From a virus: a DNA stretch of 25,297 bases. Shown here piece by piece: positions 2,371 through 6,761 of this stretch. Every line of letters starts with the position of its first letter. The stretch's first letter is position 1. The notes beneath the pieces were generated by a model. That model was not told the origin of the DNA and searched no databases. It worked only from the letters and a program-made list of their open reading frames with translations. Location: positions 1 to 25,297 of the IMG/VR virus record IMGVR_UViG_3300042868_007578. One strand, 5' to 3'. The translations under genes and the position numbers were made by a program.

Positions 2371-3279
2371 TTAATCTTTCATTAGATAGACATCCTGTAC
2401 TAATCTTGAACGCGTAATATCTTCATCTATCTCAATGGCATTTTCATTCCATTCTTGCATAGTGATGTTTAAATCTGCGTCCTGAGTTGTATTAAATTCA
2501 GATAAATCTAATGCATCACTCATTGTAATGTTCATCTTTGATAATACTTTAGCTGTCATGAAATCATGAAAGTTTTGACTATCAGATAACCAATCTCTTG
2601 GGTGAGCCTTTTTTAATGCATGTGTAACATGGTTATAGAATGTCCAAGCATTTTGTTGATCACATTGGTAATCATATGATGGTTTCTCTAACTCAGCTTT
2701 AACACAAGACATTTGTGCAGCATCAAGGATATCTTCATTGATATAAAGTCTTCCAGCAATCTCAGCTTGCTCTTGTAATGATAATTCAGTATTTCTCATT
2801 GCATCTCTATCATTGAGAATGCGTTTATAATACTTTTCAGCATTCTTGATCTGATTAGAAATTTGCATTCTAATATCATGATCAGCAGAACCAGTATGCT
2901 TTCTTCTAAAGTTCATCATGTCACCGGCAACCATACCATTATGGCAAACCATAACATATGCACCTATTGCACATTGAAAACGTGTGCTCTTATCATAAGA
3001 ATTTGTCCAGGCAAACATCATTCCCAACTCTTTCTCCTCCATAATAGTAGGATCAACAGTGTTGATTGGTAAGATATGATATATGCCTTGTGCTACATTG
3101 GCATCCATATTTGCTCTATATAATTCTTTTTGGATAATAAAACCGCTGTCTTCTAGCAGTTGTTTTGTGCTATCTATCACTTGTTTATGTGATATAACTG
3201 TATAACTTTTACCATGATTTGGTAAAGGTGCATTTTCTAGATAATTTCTAGTGGTTTCTTTTGGTTTATTATAACCCAT
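2371..3279 (-). CDS. DUF932-like protein, 302 aa
   Basis: The centre of the protein carries the pattern of the DUF932 (phage/plasmid-like) family: a region of about residues 85-135 with ...FQCAIGAYVMVCHNGM then a basic stretch with RRKHTG, matching the family's R-x-x-C-x-N-G and H-T-G signature. DUF932 proteins occur on phages and plasmids, often near replication or recombination genes; their activity is not established. Residues 140-290 are mostly helical and acidic at the end. It has its own Bacteroidota-type promoter (3300-3330) and a following terminator (2255-2278), so it may be an independently expressed unit. The family call rests on motif memory, not alignment. Confidence 0.6.
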   Translation of the reverse strand: MGYNKPKETTRNYLENAPLPNHGKSYTVISHKQVIDSTKQLLEDSGFIIQKELYRANMDANVAQGIYHILPINTVDPTIMEEKELGMMFAWTNSYDKSTRFQCAIGAYVMVCHNGMVAGDMMNFRRKHTGSADHDIRMQISNQIKNAEKYYKRILNDRDAMRNTELSLQEQAEIAGRLYINEDILDAAQMSCVKAELEKPSYDYQCDQQNAWTFYNHVTHALKKAHPRDWLSDSQNFHDFMTAKVLSKMNITMSDALDLSEFNTTQDADLNITMQEWNENAIEIDEDITRSRLVQDVYLMKD

Positions 3280-3339: not shown

Positions 3340-3537
3340 TTAATTGTTTATATTTAATGCATTTGTTAGTGAATATGCACTAGAAGTACCAATACCCACA
3401 TTACCATCCGTTGCTGTAAAAAAACCATTTGTAGTACTTGTACTACCCGTACCTGTAAAGAAACTATTTCCAAAAGTACCTCCTGTGCTACCTATAGTAC
3501 TACTACTAAAGGTATTGGAAAACCCAGGAGATCTTAA
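3340..3537 (-). pseudogene. Orphan tail-fibre-like fragment without a start codon
   Basis: Read leftward, this frame gives LRSPGFSNTFSSSTIG then Gly/Thr/Ser-rich sequence and ATDGNVGIGTSSAYS, ending ALNINN-stop at 3340-3342. Segments like DGNVGIGTSS are typical of tail-fibre and adhesin repeats in Bacteroidota phages. The open frame extends to 3561 but holds no ATG, GTG or TTG in a starting position, and an in-frame TAA precedes it at 3562-3564. It looks cut at both ends. It begins exactly where the 66-residue gene at 3534-3734 stops, in that gene's -1 frame, so it is either a recombination remnant or a frameshift extension. No matching sequence was noticed in the fibre at 1-984. Confidence 0.6.
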
Positions 3538-3734
3538 AAATTTCTGATTATAATTTGAACATTATCAGGATTTACAGCATATTCTTCGGGAATTTGTCTT
3601 GTAATTTTAAATACAAGGTCTTTCTCTGATTTAGCTAATGCTGTGGTTGGTTCAATGATGATTTTTGAATCAACATAAACACCATCTTTGTCATTTTCAT
3701 GCAGAATTACTGCATATTGGAATAAATTTTTCAT
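3534..3734 (-). CDS. Small conserved-looking protein, 66 aa
   Basis: The product starts MKNLFQYAVILHENDKDGVY and ends NPDNVQIIIRNF. The N-terminus (QYAVILHE) and the ITRQIPEEYAVNPDNVQI part recall small phage proteins predicted to be compact alpha/beta folds; no function is known to me. It follows the MazG-like gene by 9 bases. The last codons and stop read A AAT TTT TAA, a -1 slippery-type heptamer directly before the terminator codon; slippage would continue into the fibre-like fragment beyond (3340-3537). Confidence 0.7.
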   Translation of the reverse strand: MKNLFQYAVILHENDKDGVYVDSKIIIEPTTALAKSEKDLVFKITRQIPEEYAVNPDNVQIIIRNF

Positions 3735-3743
3735 TTTTTTAGT

Positions 3744-4046
3744 TTAATTGTTTTTTACAAATTGTCCATTAACCATTTTACCGGTTCTTTTACTAATTAC
3801 ATTGTATGCTGATTCAAGACATTCTTCTAAAGATAAACCTTGCATTTTACATTGAATAATTAATGTAACTACAATGTCCCCAATAGCATCAATGATCTCA
3901 GGACGATTGTCCTCTCTAATAGCAGTGTATAATTCATTAACTTCTTCCTGTGTTTTATCACATTGTCTAAGTGTTGTGGCATTAGCTAAAATACCTTTTT
4001 CTTCTGCCCATGCTTCTACTGCGCATTCTAATTCAAAATAATCCAT
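3744..4046 (-). CDS. MazG-like nucleotide pyrophosphohydrolase, 100 aa
   Basis: The all-alpha NTP pyrophosphatase motif is visible: E34-E35-x-x-E38 (EEVNE) then E50-x-x-D53 (EIID) and D57 in AIGDIVV, matching EExxE-(11 to 28 residues)-ExxD, the Mg2+-binding core. The length of 100 residues fits a single-domain MazG-type protein. Such enzymes hydrolyse NTPs or dNTPs to monophosphates plus pyrophosphate; phage versions may clear non-canonical dNTPs or affect host (p)ppGpp signalling. It lies 11 bases after the dNMP kinase gene, in keeping with a nucleotide-pool role. Substrate is not readable from sequence. Confidence 0.8.
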   Translation of the reverse strand: MDYFELECAVEAWAEEKGILANATTLRQCDKTQEEVNELYTAIREDNRPEIIDAIGDIVVTLIIQCKMQGLSLEECLESAYNVISKRTGKMVNGQFVKNN

Positions 4047-4769: not shown

Positions 4770-6761
4770 TTAAAATAATTTTAATTGATTTGATGATACA
4801 GTCAAAATATTGTTTATTTCATTTTCAATGGCCTGGCTATAGTAACCTTTATCAATATTGTATGAATCCCATTTAGGTTCCATTTTCATTTTATTAAAGA
4901 TTGTTTGTATCCATTTGCCCGCTTCTAACTGTATTTCTCTTTTGTCAACCCGGTTAACTTTTATAATCTTAACTCCACCCTTGGATATGTAATATCTATT
5001 AATTTTTTGAAGCTCATTTTCTACAAAATCACCTTCTTTAATAGATCTGGCCATACATTTCCAATCACCATTAGACTTACTTCCAATACAATAATCAAGT
5101 ATATTTTTGTTTTGTTCCAAGTATTCTTCAGGAAGAACATTATGTACAAAATATTGATAAATTGCTTTTGGTATAACTAATTTTGATTTGTTCTTGTGTA
5201 ACTGTAAGTTATGAAAATCAAACCTACCTTTTAACTTCACAGGTGCATAACTAAACTTATCATTTTCCACTTTAAACAAGTAATGCGGGTCTGATTGTTT
5301 AATCTCTCTCCATTTGGTAATATCAACTTCTTTGTAGTTATTGATGCCAATGTAGTTATTCACATCTGCTAGTACCAATTTTTGGTATTGGTCATGTTCT
5401 AAAGACAAATTAGTAATATTTTCCCATTCTTTACAGATAGCCATATACTCATCATAATACTTTCTAGGTATTAATGTCTCAATACCATCTGTATTTTGTA
5501 GTAAAGCAATTGCACCGGGGATTCTTTCCATAATTTGCTCATAAAGCATCATCAAAGTTAACTGACCATTAATTGTAATCTTCATACACAATTCAGGATC
5601 ATAAAAGAAGCTCTTTTCATCATTGCTAAGACCAAAAGTAGAGTTAAGTATAATCTTATATACATAGTTCATTGGATTGCTCTTAGAGAGCTTCTTACGC
5701 TCTTCAAAGAACCATTCATATTGATCACAGAATGCATCAACAGGAAAGTGTCCTGGAGACCATCTATTTCTGATTGCAAGATTAGGATAAAAACTGGTAA
5801 CATCTGAAGACATTATAATCATTTCTTCAGTGCTCTCATAAACACCCCTTCTTTTTGCACCATGTACACCACCCAAACCAAAGTCAGTTTTAACATCTTT
5901 ATAGTTTAAACTATATTTAAAACTACCTTTAAGATTCTTTCCGCTTATTTCTAATGCATTAAATCTTTGCAGTAAAGTTTTAAATTCACTAGAACTAAAC
6001 TTGATATAAGGTAATATGATGTCTTTGATTTTAATGATATCTCTATGTGTCCTCATGTCCCTTAATTCTTTTTTAGGAATATTTAGTTTTTCAGATAAGT
6101 AGTATCCAAAAAGCTCTTTACTAATCCTTGGTTCAGAGGCACTAAATAGATTAATACCATATGTTTTGGTCAATTCTTTTCTTAATCCTATTTGAGATTT
6201 TGATCTGTTGTATATTTCTTTGGTTGATCTTACATCATTAATACAATATTCTAGTATTGTATCAATCTCTTCTTTTGTAGTTATTGCTGACGTATGATGA
6301 ATAGGCATTTCAAGAATGTTATCCCAATCCATGCTATACTGAATCCATTTCAAACTAGAACGCTTAGCCGGGTTATCCCAGTGATGCATCTTAAAGATAT
6401 CTATTTGACCAATTGACATATTCCATTGAGAATAATCAGCAAACTCTTTTTTATTGCTTTTTTCTATAGCTCTTTGTGCACATTTATAAATGATATTTGC
6501 AACTTCACAACCTGTAAAATTACACCAATCAGTATAATTGTCCAATATAAAATGTGTTATTTGAGCATCAAAAGCTAAACCGTTGTAAGATATATGCCAC
6601 TCTTTGTTGGCTATATTTGTATTCAAAAAACTTACAAACTCATCTAAATCATTTTGCAGGTCATGAATTACAAAGACTTTTGTTTCCATAGTCTTATAAT
6701 CTTCAAATACACCTGTAAAACAATTAGATAATGTTTCATAATCCATCACCCAATGCTTCAT
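4770..6761 (-). CDS. Compact family B DNA polymerase with 3'-5' exonuclease, 663 aa
   Basis: Exonuclease motifs come first: Exo I D7-Y-E9-T, Exo II with N60 and D65 (YNGLAFDAQ), Exo III Y172-x3-D176 (YCINDV). Polymerase motif A is DVTSFYPN (D320), motif B is KIILNSTFG (K369, N373, G376) and motif C is LLQNTDGIE (D425). Order and spacing fit family B. The protein is short, about 660 residues, and the usual motif C D-T-D is N-T-D, leaving one acidic residue there, as in some viral relatives. It is the likely replicative polymerase, working with the DnaB-like helicase and primase in this block. A hairpin with a T run (6779-6814) lies upstream, so it may have its own promoter. Whether it is protein-primed is unclear; a primase in the block argues for RNA priming. 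Confidence 0.88.
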   Translation of the reverse strand: MKHWVMDYETLSNCFTGVFEDYKTMETKVFVIHDLQNDLDEFVSFLNTNIANKEWHISYNGLAFDAQITHFILDNYTDWCNFTGCEVANIIYKCAQRAIEKSNKKEFADYSQWNMSIGQIDIFKMHHWDNPAKRSSLKWIQYSMDWDNILEMPIHHTSAITTKEEIDTILEYCINDVRSTKEIYNRSKSQIGLRKELTKTYGINLFSASEPRISKELFGYYLSEKLNIPKKELRDMRTHRDIIKIKDIILPYIKFSSSEFKTLLQRFNALEISGKNLKGSFKYSLNYKDVKTDFGLGGVHGAKRRGVYESTEEMIIMSSDVTSFYPNLAIRNRWSPGHFPVDAFCDQYEWFFEERKKLSKSNPMNYVYKIILNSTFGLSNDEKSFFYDPELCMKITINGQLTLMMLYEQIMERIPGAIALLQNTDGIETLIPRKYYDEYMAICKEWENITNLSLEHDQYQKLVLADVNNYIGINNYKEVDITKWREIKQSDPHYLFKVENDKFSYAPVKLKGRFDFHNLQLHKNKSKLVIPKAIYQYFVHNVLPEEYLEQNKNILDYCIGSKSNGDWKCMARSIKEGDFVENELQKINRYYISKGGVKIIKVNRVDKREIQLEAGKWIQTIFNKMKMEPKWDSYNIDKGYYSQAIENEINNILTVSSNQLKLF

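Follow-up and report, generated by a model that had tools for sequence, protein, structure and literature searches.

Does a small viral gene that ends in an ordinary stop codon also encode a longer protein? The question is raised by a 66-residue gene whose TAA is directly preceded by a slippery-like heptamer and followed, in the -1 frame, by a reading frame that has no start of its own. The window analysed here is an entire IMG/VR record of 25,297 bases. At its left end there is a partial fibre-like ORF on the + strand, and the remainder lies on the - strand and contains mostly early and replication genes, in the order DNA polymerase, deoxynucleoside monophosphate kinase, MazG-like protein, the 66-aa gene and a DUF932 protein. 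The features of the locus, with the basis of each assignment where there is one, are as follows.

3744-4046, - strand: MazG-like pyrophosphatase, upstream neighbour of the 66-aa gene (context)
3534-3734, - strand: core gene, 66 aa, of an unnamed family (ORF, homologue alignment and AF2 model)
3537-3543, - strand: slippery heptamer A_AAT_TTT (homologues keep A_AAT_TTT or C_CCT_TTN)
3534-3536, - strand: 0-frame stop TAA, immediately 3' of the heptamer (sequence)
3340-3537, - strand: -1 frame extension, 65 aa and a stop at 3342-3340; S/T/N/G-rich and predicted to be disordered
3355-3381, - strand: conserved C-terminal motif, in the window SAYSLTNAL (motif scan)
2371-3279, - strand: DUF932 protein, downstream neighbour of the 66-aa gene (context)

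The 66-aa gene ends AGA AAT TTT TAA, and the heptamer noted in the original prediction is indeed present at 3543-3537. The start-less -1 frame of about 65 codons that was proposed to run to position 3340 is also as described: it reads LRSPGFSNTFSSSTIGSTGGTFGNSFFTGTGSTSTTNGFFTATDGNVGIGTSSAYSLTNALNINN, 65 codons in length, with no ATG, GTG or TTG upstream, and the first start-type codon within it is a GTG at codon 47. A start near the 5' end of this frame is similarly absent in most of the 16 family members checked. The prediction had left two readings side by side, a frameshift fusion and a captured piece of a fibre gene; our analysis strongly supports the former and gives no support to the latter.

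The core protein and its relatives

Relatives were identified with the core as query, which gave 14 loci at first and further ones by profile searches, and to these were added two loci from cellular genomes and a third from a genome of the Spirosomaceae. All conservation counts below cover 61 distinct cores from which duplicates were removed; these homologues share kinship, and the counts are not numbers of independent events. With the extension alone as a tblastn query, neither phages nor viral contigs yielded a relative, a consequence of its rapid evolution; searches with the core were effective. No isolate phage has a tblastn match to the core, and only the uncultured jumbo-phage records LR756501 and LR756503 matched. 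Bacteroidota hosts are supported for some loci, both by the Spirosoma and Bacteroidia contigs among them and by similarity of the MazG protein to those of Riemerella, Flavobacterium and Cellulophaga phages. A blastn search with window positions 3340-4046 matched 41 phage records at 90-95% identity with low query coverage, and 42 Staphylococcus phage records were matched, all likewise at low query coverage.

The core family has the consensus LFxYAVLxHP...IPEEY..LDxVEIxVR(P/N)F and a dN/dS of about 0.05-0.3. The AF2 model is confident (mean pLDDT 89.8) and predicts a beta-beta-alpha-beta fold whose final strand terminates at the slip site. Residue H12 (window 3699-3701, - strand) is invariant in 59 of 59 aligned cores. 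There are no Pfam, PHROGs, NCBIfam or PDB sequence matches to the family, and the fold candidates PurS, eL20/LX, YkzG, phi29 p6 and p56 gave only weak scores (Z <= 6.5) and were set aside. At other loci, as in the window, most of the identified neighbours of the core gene are early genes, including those for replication and nucleotide metabolism.

Conservation of the slip site and the -1 frame

The -1 frame is open for at least 44 codons past the stop in all 61 homologues (range 44-188, median 66), and 40 codons are attained by the +1 frame in only four and by the 0 frame beyond the stop in only two. A perfect X_XXY_YYZ heptamer (A_AAT_TTT or C_CCT_TTN) lies exactly before the stop in 55 of the 61, and the remaining six have the imperfect N_CCT_TTT; the tally is CCCTTTT 23, AAATTTT 19, CCCTTTC 7, CCCTTTG 5, CCCTTTA 1 and N_CCT_TTT 6. 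At the ends of 1354 further ORFs of these loci, used as controls, such a heptamer occurs 16 times, and seven times together with an open -1 frame, so that by sequence the combination at the end of the core gene is judged to be far beyond chance. Heptamer and frame are thus conserved in relatives, the pattern by which the original prediction had suggested that frameshifting might be recognised.

Codon usage at the site is strongly biased. The slip-site proline codon is CCT in 42 of 42 sequences against a background of 0.27 (0.16 in GC-rich loci), the arginine codon before it is CGC in 36 of the 42 members of this CCT group, and in the A_AAT group the third base of the preceding codon is always A. 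Changes at the third base of an arginine or proline codon mostly leave the protein unaltered, and the bias therefore suggests that the heptamer itself is under selection. The site switches between C_CCT and A_AAT versions among AT-rich to GC-rich phages, and homologues that keep the extension in the same frame span GC contents from 0.27 to 0.61.

Several relatives have features of their own. At locus L109 the stop is one codon later than in the others, and L080, L083, L090 and L091 form a subgroup ending VRPL with C_CCT_TTG. A distant homologue in a 735-kb phage (L040; LR756501, 2992-3755) ends C_CCT_TTT_TAA, and the 188 residues encoded by its -1 frame are collagen-like, matching Pfam Collagen at E 8e-9. 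The Spirosomaceae cores L052 (5998-6731; cultured Spirosoma sordidisoli) and L150 have A_CCT_TTT or C_CCT_TTT as the slip site, immediately followed by a strong hairpin, and long, dissimilar -1 frames of 176 and 110 aa. At L065 (about 5001-5310) the extension continues directly from VRPF in one open frame (LEQSSVAFTGTSSTNGNFYVD...), and a frameshift is not needed. This is a single metagenomic locus, and the arrangement may reflect either a true gene fusion or a sequencing error or indel; an in-frame fusion would be expected if the extension is truly part of the protein.

RNA structure downstream of the slip site

Sequences downstream of the site have a mean MFE z of -1.47, and those upstream are close to zero. 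The stem begins about 6 nt 3' of the heptamer among the relatives, and its 5' arm prefers its own downstream sequence over those of other members, ranking in the top 5% in 39 of 61 cases; in an upstream control for the same pairing test this is seen in only six of 61. The elements in the window are listed below.

3525-3532, - strand: pseudoknot stem 1, 5' arm ATCTCCTG, starting at +5 after the heptamer (covariation)
3515-3521, - strand: pseudoknot stem 2, 5' arm TTTCCAA, which the MFE fold leaves unpaired (covariation)
3489-3514, - strand: inner hairpin nested within stem 1 (MFE fold)
3478-3485, - strand: pseudoknot stem 1, 3' arm CAGGAGGT (covariation)
3467-3473, - strand: pseudoknot stem 2, 3' arm TTGGAAA (covariation)

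The original prediction had called for a search for a downstream pseudoknot, and in the window's clade one is found that is supported by compensatory changes. Pairs 1-3 and 7 of stem 1 have changed on both sides and are still paired in the 14 clade members, with one exception at pair 7. The pairs were counted in each sequence by script, since MAFFT lost the register of the 3' arm of stem 1; the clade members are related and these counts, too, are not independent. A second helix, between the loop and sequence 3' of stem 1, can form in all 14 members even though its sequence differs, with the variants TTTCCAA/TTGGAAA, TTGGTC/GACCAA, GTGGAT/ATCCAC, CCAACA/TGTTGG and GGTCTA/TAGACC. The MFE fold of the window (z -2.4) leaves exactly the 5' arm of stem 2 unpaired, and we assign the structure in this clade as a predicted H-type pseudoknot with an inserted hairpin. 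The clade thus combines compensatory changes with a spacer of about 5-9 nt, as in a stimulatory structure, which is weaker or missing in a minority of distant members. Rfam gives no match above chance near the slip site, and a convincing downstream stem is absent in L038, L039, L044, L056, L057 and L059.

The extension and its C-terminal motif

With a dN/dS of about 0.3-1, the extension changes more rapidly than the core, and its linker is accordingly weakly constrained. That of the window is predicted to be disordered (pLDDT 52, slightly higher at its end), and among relatives the linker ranges from S/T/N/G-rich to charged, with some GC-rich. Its end is conserved, approximating S-x-S-Y-T-(A/L)-S-x-A/L-L. 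When a motif was trained on half of 43 diverged extensions and scored on held-out ones, it exceeded the sequences' own shuffles (p <= 0.05) in 33 of 43 held-out sequences, where about two are expected. There is no convincing occurrence of the motif on other ORFs of three large phage records. The usual motif is missing from L080, L083, L090 and L091, two of which have another ending in common (LPPDFK...KEKKKE).

How the extension is probably expressed and where it may have come from

Conservation of the heptamer and of the frame, the codon bias, the covarying stem and pseudoknot, the C-terminal motif and the one in-frame fusion are consistent with a single interpretation, and the core gene very probably uses a conserved programmed -1 ribosomal frameshift that yields a tailed isoform. 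Most ribosomes translating the 66-aa gene would terminate at TAA, and a fraction, held at A_AAT_TTT by the downstream pseudoknot, would slip to AAA_TTT and read 65 further codons to give a 131-aa fusion. The abundant form would then be the bare beta-beta-alpha-beta core, and the rarer form the core with a fast-evolving disordered linker ending in a conserved peptide.

The alternative that the extension is an untranslated remnant of a fibre gene, or a donor for recombination that was captured downstream of an early gene, draws on the S/T/N/G-rich composition of the window extension with its GNVGIGT motif, as in fibres, and on its rapid evolution, but is almost certainly wrong. The extension is present in every homologue examined, always in the same frame and across the full range of GC content; its end keeps the conserved motif; and neither a second copy of it in the longer phage records searched, nor a matching fibre gene in the same or related genomes searched, G002 (a 118-kb record of a close relative) among them, was found. 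VGIGT does not recur in G002, although there is one VGLGT in its fibre-like ORF. The term fibre-like itself, used in the original prediction, suits the composition of the window's clade and the collagen match of the jumbo-phage homologue, but other relatives have charged or GC-rich linkers that end in the same motif. The extension is, from its distribution, an old partner of the core gene. It is also very improbable that it is a separate gene translated by reinitiation or from a non-standard start: although the stop codon is right at the junction and an internal ATG in L052 could open a 152-aa ORF, there is no ATG, GTG or TTG codon upstream, nor one close to the 5' end in most of the members checked, the heptamer and its synonymous bias would serve no role, and L065 is a straight fusion. 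Equally little credence can be given to a role of the downstream hairpin as a transcription terminator, or to slippage that is transcriptional rather than ribosomal. The hairpin is strong and lies 3' of the stop codon, and the slip site contains five T residues, but there is no terminator-like site at 3460-3536, the homopolymers are short, with no more than three T residues where the site is C_CCT_TTC or C_CCT_TTG, and the constant starting point of the pseudoknot agrees with a structure that stimulates slippage of the ribosome.

A further possibility accepts the same frameshift but places the products in the virion: the core would serve as a small subunit of the virion, or as one that decorates it, and the minority isoform would display an exposed fibre-like arm. 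The fibre-like composition of many members, the collagen-like extension of the jumbo-phage homologue, the rapid evolution of the extension and the known phage cases in which a frameshift extends a coat or tail protein (PMC5009743) are in its favour. We nonetheless regard it as rather unlikely, given the mostly replication, nucleotide-metabolism and other early genes among the identified neighbours, the charged, non-fibre-like linkers in many members, and a core for which no structural fold match was found. The mostly early gene context tips the balance, although only slightly, from virion display towards a function inside the cell, for instance as a docking tether. As a tentative first guess within the frameshift interpretation, core subunits would assemble together and the tail may act as a tether, so that only some of the subunits would carry a tip that docks a partner.

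Relationship to known systems

There are parallels in SSB-type proteins, which have a fold, a disordered linker and a conserved C-terminal tip. The core family resembles these by analogy only, in that a conserved core is followed by a variable linker and a conserved tip that may dock, in a replication-region context; the core has neither an OB fold nor an acidic tip, its tail would be optional and set by frameshifting, and it is not a member of this group.

The closest precedents are the gpG/gpGT tail assembly chaperones of phages and the Ig-like coat extensions made by frameshift (PMC5009743). As with gpG/gpGT, there is a small phage protein with a -1 slip near its end, a predicted minority fusion extended at the C-terminus, and wide conservation among phages. 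However, the core gene is not beside a tape-measure gene, and sits among early genes (MazG and DUF932 in the window); it slips exactly at the stop codon, and its extension is predicted to be disordered with a terminal motif. The core has no PHROGs, Pfam or NCBIfam match, although chaperone families of this kind diverge strongly. The Ig-like extensions of the phage T3 coat protein, Lactobacillus phage A2 and Listeria phages are similar in that a frameshift at the gene end adds a C-terminal segment to a fraction of the subunits, but no Ig-like Pfam domain is found in the window extension or in nine others scanned, and the core itself is not recognisable as a coat or tail protein.

The described phage frameshifts that we found mainly concern tail-assembly chaperones, coat proteins or tail proteins, and no published description of the core and extension element was found in the open-access literature. 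The predicted core-gene frameshift would be a separate one, nearly universal within an unnamed small early-block protein of many uncultured bacterial viruses, whose extended product is missed in annotation because gene callers end at the stop codon. Spirosomaceae genomes, among them that of Spirosoma sordidisoli TY50, contain the core and the same site in prophage-like copies, and the system is therefore open to laboratory tests. We suggest, with some hesitation, that frameshifting at the stop codon may set the fraction of early-protein subunits that carry a disordered tether and docking peptide, a translational control of tail number that would lie outside the known roles in virion assembly.
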